Shown here: one piece after another, positions 14,794-59,852 of the stretch
Position numbering within the stretch: position 1 is the first letter of the stretch
Layout: each line of letters begins with the position of its first letter
From: Prosthecobacter dejongeii
GTDB taxonomy: Bacteria > Verrucomicrobiota > Verrucomicrobiia > Verrucomicrobiales > Verrucomicrobiaceae
Direction of reading: 5' to 3'
NCBI RefSeq assembly: GCF_014203045.1
Contig: NZ_JACHIF010000011.1
Location: forward strand, 186,001-250,000
Length of the DNA stretch: 64,000 nucleotides
Program-made: the position numbers and the translations under genes
Notes under the pieces: generated by a model
Seen by the model: the letters and a program-made list of their open reading frames with translations, nothing else
Databases searched by the model: none
Told to the model about the DNA's origin: nothing

Positions 14794-14948
14794 CCAAAGT
14801 CTGCAAAGAACACAGAGTGTGCATAACGCCTCTGGCGCGGATTCCTCGCCTCTTCACCCATATTTTTGCAATTTGCCTGGGGAGCCTTCACCGAATTACC
14901 TACAATCACACGTATTGACTTATCCGGCGGCGTCTGCGAAAAAGAGAA

Positions 14949-15230
14949 ATGGCTAAAACAGCATCTACCACTCCACGTAAACCCAACGAAGCCCTGATGA
15001 AACCCGTCCAGCCGGACGAAACTCTGGCCGCTGTGGTTGGATCCACTCCGCTTCCACGTGGCGAACTGACCAAGAAACTTTGGGACTACATCAAGGCTAA
15101 AGGCCTTCAGGACACCAAGAACAAGACCCTCATCAACGCAGACGAAGCGCTGAAGAAGGTGTTCGACGGCAAGACCCAGGTCTCTATGTTTGAGATGACC
15201 AAGCTCGTCTCTGGCCACGTGAAGAAGTAA
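14949..15230 (+). CDS. SWIB/MDM2-domain protein
   Basis: The 93-aa protein has a 28-residue basic lead and then a complete SWIB domain (about 28-93), with LAAVVGSTPLPRGELTKKLW and NADEALKKVF segments and the end VSMFEMTKLVSGHVKK. SWIB domains are best known from eukaryotic SWI/SNF chromatin complexes. In bacteria they are scattered, notably in chlamydiae and other PVC-group members, where they occur alone or fused to topoisomerase I and may be linked to DNA condensation or topology. A free small SWIB protein therefore suggests a nucleoid-associated role, which is inference. An AAAGAGAA stretch just before the ATG may serve as ribosome-binding site. A strong intrinsic terminator follows 26 bases after the stop. 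The gene is monocistronic. Confidence 0.9.
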   Translation: MAKTASTTPRKPNEALMKPVQPDETLAAVVGSTPLPRGELTKKLWDYIKAKGLQDTKNKTLINADEALKKVFDGKTQVSMFEMTKLVSGHVKK

Positions 15231-52771: not shown

Positions 52772-53098
52772 GTGAAAAATTCCTGGCTGGGGGTGGGCCG
52801 CCAAAGTCAGCGCGTCCGGCACATCTTCAATCAGTTTCGCTGACGGAAGTCTGCCGGGCCACAAACCGACAGGTAGGGCGGGAGGAAGAAACGACTCAAG
52901 GTTAACGCATCTTTCCAGGGAAAGGATCCCTTTGAGAGGGGATAAACCCCGCCTTTCTTATTGCACTTATTCACATGAACAGTCATTTATACACAGGACT
53001 GTCAAGCGCCTTTCTTCTAAAATTATCAGATTTTTCGCACAAAAGCAGATGTCAAAAATGAGAAAACCTCACGTTTTTGCAAAAAACAACCCCTTGGG

Positions 53099-53127
53099 TT
53101 GACGGGAAGGGTAAAACTTTTTAACCT
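53099..53127 (+). promoter_or_regulatory. Candidate sigma70 promoter for a small RNA
   Basis: TTGACG (53099-53104), 17-base spacer, TAACCT (53122-53127). The -35 box is strong; the -10 box is weak. A transcript would begin near 53134. Confidence 0.35.
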
Positions 53128-53133
53128 TACGGC

Positions 53134-53275
53134 GTCTGTCGAAGCCTTGCGCTTGGCAGGCCACGATGTTGCAGCTTCCTCAGCTAAGACTTTCGTGCCA
53201 AACGATCCTCACTGTTGTTGGTTGCTGGATCGCAAACCAGACCCTCCGGCTCCGCATGCCGGAGGGTCTCTTTGT
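53134..53275 (+). ncRNA. Candidate structured small RNA ending at an intrinsic terminator
   Basis: Between a promoter-like pair and a strong terminator lie about 140 bases with three further stems: GGCCACGA with TCGTGCC (53159-53166 / 53193-53199, one bulged C), an inner AGCT/AGCT hairpin (53173-53185), and CGATCC with GGATCG (53203-53208 / 53227-53232). The terminator hairpin follows directly. No plus-strand protein gene exists here to need that terminator. I do not recognise a known RNA family: it lacks the SRP RNA domain IV and tmRNA features, and 6S RNA could not be shown. Ends are inferred. Confidence 0.45.
53240..53275 (+). terminator. Strong plus-strand intrinsic terminator with no upstream protein gene
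   Basis: GACCCTCCGGC pairs perfectly with GCCGGAGGGTC (11 bp, 7-base loop) and is followed by TCTTTGTTT. On the minus strand no T-run follows, so it acts on plus-strand transcripts. Confidence 0.85.
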
Positions 53276-53343
53276 TTCAGGTCATCACTCGAAGATGGAG
53301 TGGCCTTCTTTAAAAACACAGGATGTCTCCCATGCATCCTGAT

Positions 53344-54810
53344 TCACGCATCAAACGTGACCTCAGGATACAAGCGCGCGAGTGTGCATGAGAGACAATC
53401 GGTAACGAGTGGCAAAGCCGACTTGGAAAGAGCATCAGGCATCCCACCCTTCTCCACGCCCTCTTTCCAAAGACGATCCACACCATCGCCATGTTCATCC
53501 AGCACTTGCTCCACCACTTGATTCCAATGAGCAGGCTCCACACACTCCTGCCATTCACCACGACCACGACCAAAGTGAGCCACGGCGAGGTAAGTCAGCA
53601 TGGCTAAACGCACCTGTTCACGGAAGTGCTCTCGTGACCAATGCAGTCGTTGATCACCACCTCGCACGAGATTGTAGCTCTTGATCAAGGCATACGCACC
53701 GAGACCCGCGGCTAAGCCGCCAAGAAGGGCCCCACCGCCGAACGTCATGCCACCCATCTTCAAGTCTGCTATGAGCCCGCCCATGGCCCCACCTGCCACA
53801 CTGCCCACCACGCTCCAGATGGCTTCGGGCACAGGCTGAGGTGAATGAAACTGATCCTTGGCTAAGGCCCCCAGGGCGCGAGCGGACTCCCCTTCTAGAC
53901 CATGCAGGCGGATGAGTGCATTCGTCGTGGCTGTGATGCGGTCTGCCAACTGTGTGGCTAGTTTTTCTCTAGCCTCTTGATACTCCTTATTGAGGTCGGT
54001 TCGGCCTATGCCCACTCGCTCCAGCAATGTTTCATTGCGCACAGCCACACCATCTAATACCGCCGCAGTGAGCAGCTCGGACAGCACCCGGCAGGACTGG
54101 CGAAAGACGTCCACATTCCGCTCATGCCAGGCACGCTTCAGGTGCTTGAAGGCATCGGCCTTACGTTCAGCTAACAAGGGAGCGAGCGACTCCATCAGCC
54201 GATCTTCCTGCACCCAGCAGCGGGCGAACGCATCCATGCGCAGAACATCCCGGACAAAGACATAACCTTTCAGATGTTCACGCCAGGCGGTCATCTCCGC
54301 TTCATCGGTTTCTTGCGATTCCAGGGGACCTGTTTGATTCAGCAAAACCATCACCGGTTTACCCGTCCAACCTAAAATCTCCATCTCTGGGGCAATATAT
54401 GCAGCGACTTCGGGAGGCTCGGTAGCATTGACGAGGTAAAGCACCACATCGGCTTCATCACGCACGTTTTTCAGCGCCTGCTGGCTGCACCACAGAGGCT
54501 TATCGGTGAGGCGATCCCATGTTTGAGATAGGAACCATAACACCGGATTACGCTCGCGTTGCAGCCGCTTTAATAAGCGCGCACTATCGCCAAAGCCTGG
54601 AGTGTCCCACAGCCGTAGCAGACGTGCGTCTTCTTCTAACAAAGTGTAGGACTCATTAAAGAGGGTGACGTGGGCGGCATCTCGCACCTCTCCCACATCC
54701 CGACGCAGCAGGGTACGGGCAAGTGTGGTCTTCCCCGCATTCGTGTGCGAGATGAGACTGAGGGTGACGATATCCGAGGCGGGCGGAGTGATGCCTGGAG
54801 GGGGTGGCAT
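53344..54810 (-). CDS. Dynamin/Era-like GTPase with glycine-rich hydrophobic region (DUF3482-like)
   Basis: This GTPase (488 aa) has a degenerate P-loop SHTNAGKTT (21-29, Ser in place of the first Gly) and a DTPGFGD switch (69-75). The usual NKxD is replaced by NQTG (VMVLLNQTG), which may alter nucleotide specificity. A helical domain (about 190-335) is followed by a glycine-rich hydrophobic segment (VVGSVAGGAMGGL to GGLAAGLGAYALI, about 350-390) that could insert in or bind the membrane. The arrangement resembles the GTPase/DUF3482 family, often paired with a DUF2868 protein; no such partner is adjacent. The start at 54810 is preferred; an ATG at 54888 would add 26 residues. Its function is unknown. 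Confidence 0.72.
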   Translation of the reverse strand: MPPPPGITPPASDIVTLSLISHTNAGKTTLARTLLRRDVGEVRDAAHVTLFNESYTLLEEDARLLRLWDTPGFGDSARLLKRLQRERNPVLWFLSQTWDRLTDKPLWCSQQALKNVRDEADVVLYLVNATEPPEVAAYIAPEMEILGWTGKPVMVLLNQTGPLESQETDEAEMTAWREHLKGYVFVRDVLRMDAFARCWVQEDRLMESLAPLLAERKADAFKHLKRAWHERNVDVFRQSCRVLSELLTAAVLDGVAVRNETLLERVGIGRTDLNKEYQEAREKLATQLADRITATTNALIRLHGLEGESARALGALAKDQFHSPQPVPEAIWSVVGSVAGGAMGGLIADLKMGGMTFGGGALLGGLAAGLGAYALIKSYNLVRGGDQRLHWSREHFREQVRLAMLTYLAVAHFGRGRGEWQECVEPAHWNQVVEQVLDEHGDGVDRLWKEGVEKGGMPDALSKSALPLVTDCLSCTLARLYPEVTFDA

Positions 54811-56768: not shown

Positions 56769-59700
56769 CTACGGCTCAGGAGAAGACGCTACTGGCAGCA
56801 GCAGAACCTGCCCGGTTTCGGGGGCTGCTTCAGCCTCGCAGAGGCCCACCGCTAACCACCGTCCATCAGGGGAAAAACGCAGTGCCTCAGTTGTCTTTTC
56901 GAGTCGCAGATAAAACACCTCTCGCCGCGTATCCATCCGCCAAAAACGCAGCCCTAGCCCAATTTCTGAAGACACCAACGTTTGCCCATCGGGTGAAAAA
57001 GCCACGCCAGAAACCTCTTCGATGTGACCTCTCAGCACCGCCTTGAGCTGCCCTTGGGGCAGATGCCGCAAGTGGATATGACCATTGATACCCGCAGTCG
57101 CCATCCACTCGCCATCGGGAGAAAACGCAATATCACGTGCCCAATGCGGATCATTGGAAAAACGCTGGGTCCGATTTGTCTTAAAATCATGCAGAGCCAG
57201 CTCCTGCCATGAAGCGACCGCAAAGTAGCGCCCATCTGGCGACAGCTTCGCGGCTTTGACCTCGGACTCACCTGACAAAGGCTGCGTAAGTAGCTGGGGT
57301 ACAACTTCCCGCCGGCCACTTTGGATCTCGAGCCTCACCACATGGCCTGGGACCTGAAGGCTATAAAAATACGCTCCATTGTAACTGAATCCTGTTTTGA
57401 GAAAAGTGCTTCCTGCAGCCCCCAACGACCATGAAAGCTCGCCATCTTCTCGGCTCAAAACCCCCTTATTGCGATTCCAGCCCCATAGCTGACCTTGATC
57501 ATCATAACCAACCGATGGGGCGGGCAGCACTAACTTTTTCGAGGCTTCCTTGAGAAAGCTTTGTTGCATCGTTTGTTGGCCTTGAGCCAAACAAATCGCT
57601 TTTGAATCTGGGGTAAAGATCAAAGGCTCATAACGCGAGTGGGCGTAACGAGCCAGGGCCGCCAGGCGATCCCCGGCCAAGGGAAAACCAAAGACTTTCA
57701 GAACGCCATCCTTATCCCCTGTAGCCAAGTATTGGCCTTGGGGATGCAGGGCTGCACACCAGATTTCATTTTCATGTGCAGCAGAGAGCTGTGCGACCTC
57801 TCGCCCGTCTTTCCAAGCGCGAATCGAGCGGTCAGAGGAGGTCGTGATCTGCATTTGCGAGTCGGCTGAAAACGTCACCGACCAAGGCCTTAAGGAATGC
57901 CCCTTTAAAGACGGCAGCCGCTCTGCACCAGGCATGGAAAATCGAATCACGTCTGCCCCACCTTGAAATAAGGACACAGCCAAGCTCAGACCATCAGGCG
58001 CAAATTGCAGTGACCAAACCGGGCCTGGCGTGGGTAGCAGTCGAGGAGGCTCATGATCGTTTTTCAAGTTCACTAACCAAAGACCGCTTTCCATGTCAGC
58101 ACGCCCCACATGGGGTCTGGAAAAAGCCAACCGATCTCCCTCACGAGATAACGCCAGAACTCGCCCTGGCTGAGGCAGCGTTTTCCATGGGGAGGGAGCC
58201 CCTTCGCCCAACTTCCAAAGAGTGATTTCACCCGCCGGCTCATAATAAAAAGGCCCTCGTGAACTCACTGCGAGTAAACCTGCTTGTTTGGCCAGCGAGA
58301 ACTGTACGCCTTTGATCTCCCAAATCGGTTGGTCCTGCCCGAGCTTGCGCAGACGAATGACACCATTTGATTCGGCACATATAAATGACTCTTCATCCAG
58401 CCATTTCACCTGATTCAATCGCGGCTTACCGGGAGCCAAAATCTGCTGTTCCATTTTCAGCCGCCCGGCTTTATCCAGACGCCACAACTTTAGGGATCCC
58501 TCATGGGCACCACTCAGCAGCCATTGACCACTCGGGCTCCAGTCCAGCGTGGTGAGAATATGGCCATGAGCTGAAATAGAAAACAACTCCTGCGGGTTCA
58601 TCAAATGCTGTAGCAAGTGCCATTCGGGGCCGCGTAAATCACGCTCACCTAATTCCGGCACAGAATCCCGAAGAAGGCTGCGCGCTTGAGCAGGCAACCC
58701 CGCATTCATCGCCCCTGCCGCTGCTGCAATGTTGCTAGAATAAAGCTCCACACGCCGAGCTTCGGCCTCCCGCGCTGCGTGCTGCCAACCAAGGACGGAG
58801 CCCAAGGTGCCAGCAATGATCGCTAGAACCAAAGCGACACTTAATGCCGCTAAAACAGGCTGTCTTTGCGCCCGACGAAAAACTCGCGCCCAGGTGCTAA
58901 CGGGCCGCGCGAGGATGGAATCGCCTCGAAGAAAACGATCTAGCTCATCCGCCACTTCCTGCGCACTGGCATAACGAGAAGCAGGTTTTTTTTCTAAACA
59001 GCGCAGGCAAATGGTCTGCAAATCCAGCGGGATCGAAGGATTGAGCAAGCGCGGGGCCACTGGCTCTTGCATCTCGGTCGCCGCCAGCAGAGCCGCCACG
59101 GAATCGGCCACGAAAGGAGGTCTCCCGGTGAGGCAATGGTAGAGCACGGCCCCCAGTCCATACACATCTTCAGCCATCGCGGGAGATCCTTCATGAAGAC
59201 CCACGCGTTCAGGAGGCAGGTAACCTGGTGAACCCAGGCTCTGGGCACTGCGCGTGAGCGTATGCCCCGTTTGAGTAAAACGCGCCAACCCAAAATCGGT
59301 CAACATAGGCTCCATCTCATCCCTCAATAAGATGTTCGAAGGCTTCAAGTCTCGGTGAATCACCCCTCTCTCATGGGCATGTGCCACCGCTCGCGCCACC
59401 TGCCTGATGATGTGAGCGGAAAACTCTGGAGTGAGTCTATCCCTCTGCAACCGTTCCCCCAGAGAAAGCCCCTCGACCAACTCCATCGCAATGAAAGGCT
59501 GGCCTAACAATTCACCGATTTCGTGGATCGCCACGATATTGGGATGATTCAGACTGGCTGCCGTCTCGGCCTCACGTTGGAAACGCTGCCGAAACTCTTG
59601 CGACGAAAAGGCAGCACCTGGGAGAATCTTCACCGCCACCACTCTCCTCAGTCTTTCCTGCCGCGCCCGATACACCACGCCCATGCCACCACGGGCGATT

Positions 59701-59852
59701 TCACCTAACAACGTATAACTCGGTAAAGGCGGCAATTCCTCCGCATCCTCCAGCAGTACGCAAACCGGGCAGAGGAGAGCGCCCGAACCAGCAGGCAGAA
59801 TGGCCCCGCAGTCTGGGCAAGAAGTGGAAGGAGAATCTAGCACAATGCTCAT
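56769..59852 (-). CDS. Membrane Ser/Thr protein kinase with C-terminal WD40-type propeller
   Basis: This 1027-aa sensor kinase has an N-terminal zinc-ribbon-like segment (CPDC at 12-15, CPVC at 28-31), a Hanks-type kinase domain (about 46-308) and a transmembrane helix (about 333-355). The kinase has GEIARGGMGVVY, K75, HRDLK (166-170) and DFG (186-188), all intact. The extracytoplasmic part (about 360-1027) holds WD40-like repeats (LLSGAHEGSLKLWRL, ITTSSDRSIRAWKDG, LATGDKDGVLKVFGF, MATAGINGHIHLRHL). The combination with an adjacent ECF sigma gene is characteristic of planctomycetes and verrucomicrobia and suggests signalling from the periplasm to transcription. The stimulus is unknown. The sigma gene ends 29 bases upstream. 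Confidence 0.92.
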   Translation of the reverse strand: MSIVLDSPSTSCPDCGAILPAGSGALLCPVCVLLEDAEELPPLPSYTLLGEIARGGMGVVYRARQERLRRVVAVKILPGAAFSSQEFRQRFQREAETAASLNHPNIVAIHEIGELLGQPFIAMELVEGLSLGERLQRDRLTPEFSAHIIRQVARAVAHAHERGVIHRDLKPSNILLRDEMEPMLTDFGLARFTQTGHTLTRSAQSLGSPGYLPPERVGLHEGSPAMAEDVYGLGAVLYHCLTGRPPFVADSVAALLAATEMQEPVAPRLLNPSIPLDLQTICLRCLEKKPASRYASAQEVADELDRFLRGDSILARPVSTWARVFRRAQRQPVLAALSVALVLAIIAGTLGSVLGWQHAAREAEARRVELYSSNIAAAAGAMNAGLPAQARSLLRDSVPELGERDLRGPEWHLLQHLMNPQELFSISAHGHILTTLDWSPSGQWLLSGAHEGSLKLWRLDKAGRLKMEQQILAPGKPRLNQVKWLDEESFICAESNGVIRLRKLGQDQPIWEIKGVQFSLAKQAGLLAVSSRGPFYYEPAGEITLWKLGEGAPSPWKTLPQPGRVLALSREGDRLAFSRPHVGRADMESGLWLVNLKNDHEPPRLLPTPGPVWSLQFAPDGLSLAVSLFQGGADVIRFSMPGAERLPSLKGHSLRPWSVTFSADSQMQITTSSDRSIRAWKDGREVAQLSAAHENEIWCAALHPQGQYLATGDKDGVLKVFGFPLAGDRLAALARYAHSRYEPLIFTPDSKAICLAQGQQTMQQSFLKEASKKLVLPAPSVGYDDQGQLWGWNRNKGVLSREDGELSWSLGAAGSTFLKTGFSYNGAYFYSLQVPGHVVRLEIQSGRREVVPQLLTQPLSGESEVKAAKLSPDGRYFAVASWQELALHDFKTNRTQRFSNDPHWARDIAFSPDGEWMATAGINGHIHLRHLPQGQLKAVLRGHIEEVSGVAFSPDGQTLVSSEIGLGLRFWRMDTRREVFYLRLEKTTEALRFSPDGRWLAVGLCEAEAAPETGQVLLLPVASSPEP

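Follow-up and report, generated by a model that had tools for sequence, protein, structure and literature searches.

What kind of element occupies positions 53099-53275 of the window (the whole 64,000-nucleotide stretch of Prosthecobacter dejongeii DNA analysed here), and what role could it play? A sequence-only reading had placed there, in a gene-free region, a structured RNA of ca. 140 nt, with promoter-like boxes and a terminator hairpin of its own. The region was confirmed to be free of genes: a divergent gene encoding a PQQ beta-propeller protein begins upstream, and downstream a convergent minus-strand gene (DUF3482/GTPase) has its end at 53344. Comparative evidence supports a discrete, independent structured RNA at the locus, and we infer that it is transcribed from there. 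Its ca. 140 nt would fold into four hairpins, P1 to P4, the last being the terminator (Table 1), and its own genome contains a single copy. Covariance model R1, of which the window copy is a part, scores that copy at 137.7 bits, and the segment 53135-53275 has a folding energy of -59.6 kcal/mol (z -3.86), a value equalled by none of 200 shuffles. The internal stems previously proposed at 53159-53199 and 53203-53232 coincide with P2 and P3 within a few bases, and the proposed terminator hairpin was recovered as P4. In P4, 9 of the 12 pairs are G-C, the loop has 7 nt, and CTTTGTTTCA follows, with a T-rich tail reaching to about 53278. Five terminator-like sites were detected between 52300 and 54000, versus a mean of 2.0 (s.d. 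1.3) in shuffled sequences.

Table 1. Predicted features of the small RNA locus in window coordinates
Feature	Position	Strand	Description
Conserved upstream control region	52999..53098	+	TGTCAAG, TCTAAAATTATCAGA, TCTCA..TGAGAAT-like half-palindrome and TTTTTGCAAAA palindrome; from the 57-sequence alignment and per-locus listings
Promoter (predicted)	53099..53127	+	TTGACG (53099-53104), 17-nt spacer with AAAACTTTTTA, TAACCT as -10 box (53122-53127); conserved in 57 aligned relatives
Small RNA	~53132..53275	+	Putative 5' end; full span covered by model R1
P1 hairpin	53134..53161	+	9 pairs, 7 changed on both sides; 81.1% of cells paired
P2 hairpin	53162..53197	+	Three stacked helices; 11 pairs, 6 changed on both sides
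P3 hairpin	53203..53232	+	CGATCC (5' arm) and GGATCG (3' arm) enclosing a large loop; presumed functional core
Core GTTGTTGGTTGCTGGATC	53214..53231	+	P3 loop and 3' arm; exact in 55/55 family loci
P4 intrinsic terminator hairpin	53239..53269	+	Found by terminator scan; 12 pairs, 9 changed on both sides; 99.0% of cells paired

Homologues were retrieved by blastn with a 211-base query from 55 of 68 family genomes (Prosthecobacter and other Verrucomicrobiaceae), including 46 of the 48 genomes of the genus. For 54 genomes the match was at E 8e-5 or better; the remaining one, G002, matched at E 0.001 and scored 70.1 bits by the covariance model, of which it is a part. These 55 family loci are L001 and L009-L062. 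The 13 genomes in which blastn gave no orthologue (G005, G011, G012, G022, G035 and G060-G067) are not all true absences, as the model recovered G012 and G064, and in G035 the loop complement lies at a contig edge. Altogether, the covariance model added two genera to those reached by blastn. When it was run on 387 genomes of the phylum, matches were obtained in 21, convincing ones in G000, G014, G017, G046, G002, G064 and G012, and no convincing homologue was found outside the family among the 387; weak relatives may have been missed because stricter filters were applied in this search. Genera g7, g9 and g10, whose genomes are not necessarily within the 387, gave no confirmed copy. Weak matches outside the family (G081, G097, G100, G111, G117, G134, G151, G184, G204, G207, G288, G301, G333 and G355) were rejected: by eye, those of 12 of these 14 genomes look terminator-like or coding, and the other two (L141 and L149) lack GGTTGCTGGATC, TTGGTTGC and GCTGGATC on either strand. 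G117 and G184 match 14-16 letters of the core, and a P3-like stretch of G301 lies antisense to a frame of 465 amino acids; both cases are probably due to chance. A groEL similarity to P1 was also a chance match.

The promoter-like boxes of the sequence-only reading held up as conserved elements among relatives, TTGAC being present at matching distance in 57 of 58 (the 58th, L061, is cut by the contig end), but not as a consensus promoter, since a strict sigma-70 scan accepted no promoter in the region, the boxes TTGACG and TAACCT included. The common pattern is TTGAC, 17 nt and TAnnnT, with AAAA(C/G)TTTTTA in the spacer of most copies. The 57-sequence promoter alignment was anchored on TTGAC, so that independent evidence comes only from conserved columns outside this motif, for instance the final T of the -10 box (at least 95%). 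The exact combination of promoter elements occurs once in the 6-Mb genome. The promoter did not mark a wider regulon: 14 matches were found at up to 3 mismatches versus 20 for a reversed control, and only the gene itself matched perfectly. Further upstream, elements resembling TTTTTGCAAAA, TCTCA..TGAGAAT and CTAAAATT, together with TGTCAAG, follow one another at nearly fixed spacing over ca. 100 bp. TGTCAAG occurs in 49 of 57 loci, 47 of which have it 99 to 101 bp before the -35 box, and GTCAA occupies this position in 54 of 57; L014 and L015 are longer by ca. 11 bases in the interval from the palindrome to the -35 box. As these elements are kept although the upstream gene varies between clades, they probably belong to the RNA. 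A separate observation concerns TATTCACATGAACA, at window positions 52968-52981 before the divergent PQQ gene, which is one mismatch from the LexA-type box TGTTC-N4-GAACA. It was dropped as an element of the locus because a one-mismatch box occurs in 17 of 57 loci, and not always at the same position.

The structure was assessed on alignment A1, made up of 51 sequences: 49 of the 55 loci plus L068 and L079, both found by means of the 18-mer core. Left out were L029, L050, L054, L057 and L061, whose promoter was not recognised by pattern, and L035, a near-duplicate of L033. Across A1, 92.3% of 1898 cells were paired, versus 83.5% in shuffled alignments and 30.9-42.5% when the structure was slid along the sequences. 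Pairs with changes on both sides numbered 23 of 38 (13.6 in shuffles) and cells changed on both sides 209 (70.6 in shuffles); none of 500 shuffles reached any of the five measures. The three helices of P2 had 90.2, 91.7 and 93.8% of their cells paired. P2 columns were chosen on the same alignment used for counting, and held-out scores and folds serve as the check. Members outside the model scored 134.2, 106.4, 106.4, 105.2, 56.4 and 48.8 bits, and one held-out copy from genus g8 (L136), folded alone, adopted P1 to P4 (z -5.55) and formed three additional pairs within the P3 loop. Among 15 members sharing less than 80% identity, paired cells amounted to 99/133 for P1, 139/158 for P2, 88/90 for P3 and 176/178 for P4.

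The compensatory changes that the sequence-only reading had asked for in P2 and P3 were thus present overall and in P2, but nearly missing in P3, where 96.1% of cells were paired in A1 and one pair only had changed on both sides; none had in the 15 non-redundant members. This scarcity is due to the invariance of the 3' arm, and the evidence for pairing in P3 consists of exchanges between A-U and G-U and of the asymmetry between its arms. Folding of single sequences gave a mixed picture. L062, which is in the model, formed P3 when folded alone (z -4.55), and the mean pairing probability of P3 was above 0.5 in 31 of 51 sequences and at or below 0.5 in 20. The window copy and L068, folded singly, preferred an alternative in which the 5' strand of P2 pairs with the P3 loop. 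Given this alternative and the limited number of sequences with P3 above 0.5, the consensus structure rests on comparison and not on energy, and the RNA may switch between the two folds.

Regarding identity, the statement that no known family was matched stood up to a search of Rfam 15, which gave no match above the gathering score in the window; nine sub-threshold matches (E 0.44-9.5) were all at chance level, and on L068 and L100, another locus found by the 18-mer, only one tRNA each was reported. 6S RNA, for which a check had been suggested, gave a negative result (RF00013, no match in the window). A 6S-like locus was detected instead on another contig (L063, G000:C12:125890-126075), scoring 40.6 bits where the gathering score is 46.4. 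This is probably the 6S RNA of the lineage, missed by the default threshold, and as it is located elsewhere, 6S was rejected for the RNA studied here. Both RNAs are of similar size class and single copy, with strong hairpins; 6S RNA has the shape of a single long hairpin with a central bubble, which is not seen here. That the locus encodes a divergent piece of a housekeeping RNA (6S, SRP, tmRNA or RNase P) would fit its single copy and its presence in nearly the whole genus. The Rfam result, the 6S-like locus and the confinement of convincing homologues to the family within the phylum set make it a remote prospect.

A short peptide gene is hardly credible. In the window copy a frame of 58 amino acids (53166-53342) does cross the core, but comparison of 51 relatives shows no conserved frame, and the first, second and third codon positions of the core are alike invariant. 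Of 153 sequence-frame combinations, just 13 had a frame that runs through the core and is preceded by an ATG. The spacing from TTTCG to the core, which is 21, 22, 23, 24 or 25 nt in 46 of 48 sequences, varies in a way that precludes a conserved frame.

The neighbourhood was analysed for the 55 loci. The nearest upstream frame was divergent in 43, on the same strand in 11 and absent from the stretch in 1; the nearest downstream frame was convergent in 47, on the same strand in 6 and absent from the stretch in 2. Neighbouring proteins fell into 12 upstream and 12 downstream clusters, which differ between clades. These orientations bear on whether the hairpins, which end in a terminator, could be a cis-acting leader or attenuator of the downstream gene, as might be imagined from the Patescibacteria copies described below, where ddl follows the RNA in the same orientation. 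The downstream gene is on the opposite strand in the window, as in 47 of the 55 loci, and we consider an attenuator very unlikely. What was found is an own promoter (recognised by conservation and not by consensus scan), an intrinsic terminator and no conserved adjacent gene, in a sequence that is structured, non-coding and under selection. The literature in open-licence PubMed Central yielded nothing on this RNA; with no match in Rfam 15 and no paper found there, the family appears to be undescribed. Hence the RNA family looks new, whereas its kind, the trans-acting sRNA, is already known.

Conservation was concentrated in P3. GUUGUUGGUUGCUGGAUC, which comprises the P3 loop and 3' arm, was unchanged in all 55 loci, in contrast to the drifting P1 and linkers. 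In genera g8 and g11 the loop is shorter (GTATTGGTTGCTGGATC). In the 15 non-redundant members, mean column conservation was 1.0 for the core loop and 0.99 for the P3 3' arm, versus 0.91 for the P3 5' arm, 0.67 for the linker and 0.58 for P1. The 5' arm drifts within pairing, from A-U to G-U. A fixed loop and 3' arm, a drifting 5' arm, and the different hairpins that surround P3 in L100 together point to P3 as the recognition element.

The reading that we favour, and to which we would give an even chance, is that of an Hfq-independent trans-acting regulatory RNA with the P3 loop as recognition module. Regulators that bind the conserved upstream elements would govern its promoter, and an RNA of ca. 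140 nt would be made under this control and ended by the intrinsic terminator. P1 and P2 would serve as scaffold hairpins and the large loop of P3 would present its G/U-rich strand for recognition, the 5' arm mostly needing only to pair with the 3' arm. Acting in trans and without Hfq, the loop would pair with C/A-rich mRNA stretches near start codons, candidate partners being sites like AGCAACCAA; once P3 had opened, the 3' arm would also pair with the mRNA, and ribosome binding would be changed. The Hfq-free form of this reading was preferred because Hfq (PF17209, E 0.001) was found in none of 19 genomes (the own genome, 12 of the genus and 6 of the order), a search in which 5 of 14 controls were positive.

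Pairing with C/A-rich mRNA sites was inferred by analogy to the R1 seed of GcvB. Hfq-independent trans-acting sRNAs of the Firmicute type, such as RsaE, likewise expose a conserved loop without Hfq, but their loop seeds are C-rich and match Shine-Dalgarno sequences, unlike the G/U-rich seed proposed here. The R1 seed of enterobacterial GcvB is G/U-rich and unpaired, and the proposed reading of C/A-rich mRNA sites by a conserved seed would be shared with it. GcvB differs in using Hfq, which was not found in the genomes searched here. It shows no sequence or covariance relation to the present RNA, for which no Rfam family matched, and the seed proposed here is presented by a hairpin whose loop adjoins an invariant stem arm. 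A published account gives CACAACA as the GcvB R1 target consensus and describes repression by GcvB of the translation of numerous proteins (PMC4104026).

An invariant loop is equally expected if P3 binds a protein, by titrating or guiding an RNA-binding protein or a part of the transcription or translation machinery. Such binding is a serious rival to mRNA pairing, although we rate it as rather less likely. It would account for 18 invariant bases that include a fixed stem arm, and would sit well with the lack of a convincing mRNA complement in the own genome and of a detected Hfq. Against it speaks the single copy of the motif per RNA, which differs from titrating RNAs with several copies.

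The search for targets of the favoured pairing gave one weak lead. In the own genome, a complement of the 18-nt core with fewer than 2 mismatches was found only at the RNA gene itself; five other places had 2-3 mismatches, versus one such place for the reversed control, and none of them is a convincing start region. Across 48 genomes, the complement of an 11-mer of the loop gave 167 matches (ca. 46 being the RNA gene), versus 86 for a reversed control that was not dinucleotide-matched, a mild excess only. Inspection of 20 such sites from 9 genomes revealed one just before a convincing start codon, and no conserved target was found. In G043, the 5' region of a gene for a SWIB-domain protein (PF02201) is perfectly complementary to the loop over 14 nt, at a site 13 nt ahead of the ATG. 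Among 16 SWIB orthologues with another 5' region (L218-L233), 12 formed one-mismatch duplexes at -21.7 or -21.8 kcal/mol, the other four (L219, L222, L227 and L231) reaching only -17.1 to -20.1; L217 gave -10.6. Values for L234-L245 ranged from -9.9 to -17.8 kcal/mol except for L244 (-22.2), whose start codon, like some others, was wrongly assigned. As background, 4 of 364 start regions reached -21.8 kcal/mol, many of the frames being doubtful. The genome of the window contains one SWIB match only, of a more distant paralogue type. The SWIB gene was not accepted as a target, the sequence matches being suggestive at most. As side observations, a SWIB-domain gene (PF02201) is located at 14940-15224 of the window, and two SWIB matches were obtained in 18 of the 39 genus genomes, with frequent complementarity between the RNA loop and the second paralogue's 5' region.

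Beyond the phylum, an exact scan for the 18-mer in 84,980 species genomes returned 57 stretches. Eight were titled outside Verrucomicrobia and two were accepted, both from Patescibacteria (L068 and L100); L074, L075, L085, L102, L115 and L119 were rejected, their flanking similarity not exceeding that of shuffles. L068, from G448, is a full-length homologue with 85.1 bits, a score that is not independent because L068 is among the 51 sequences behind R1; the 75 bases before its core align to a genus-g1 copy at score 67, shuffles reaching 24 at most. In L100, from G449, which is outside the model, only P3 was recognised (27 bits) and other hairpins surround it. With a flank score of 24 versus 23 in shuffles, L100 rests on the exact core, on GATCCTCACT before the core and on synteny, and its stretch, which does not include the terminator, folds no better than shuffles (z 0.01). 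Both copies lie between uvrC and ddl. In this gap (2449-3840 of L068 and 2521-3955 of L100), the RNA adjoins an open frame of 183 or 188 amino acids, respectively; the two frames differ from each other and have no Pfam match at E 0.01.

A search of the class to which G448 belongs (285 genomes) gave no convincing match other than G448, and weak Patescibacteria matches in G617, G593 and G522 lack GGTTGCTGGATC. The sequence relations look like horizontal transfer between Verrucomicrobiaceae and Patescibacteria, in either direction. A phage or plasmid origin was rejected, as none of 50,697 phage or 72,556 plasmid records matched. Eight IMG/VR contigs carry the 18-mer, always antisense within a frame of similar size and position, and were therefore regarded as chance matches. 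An extension of these data, speculative and on the whole unlikely, would have P3 as a portable recognition module shared by horizontal transfer and read by an RNA-binding protein or by Hfq-free pairing, with scaffold hairpins swappable around an almost invariant 18-nt core.

For the PVC group, a table in one publication counts 8 sRNAs (PMC9029176). The RNA proposed here would add an sRNA distributed across a family to the few described for this group, in a lineage without detected Hfq, and its near-invariant loop offers one easily mutated element for probing Hfq-free regulation. The Patescibacteria copies raise the question of regulatory RNAs passing between phyla. Elsewhere in the window, the minus strand of 56769-59852 encodes a protein of 1027 amino acids with a protein kinase domain followed by WD40 repeats.
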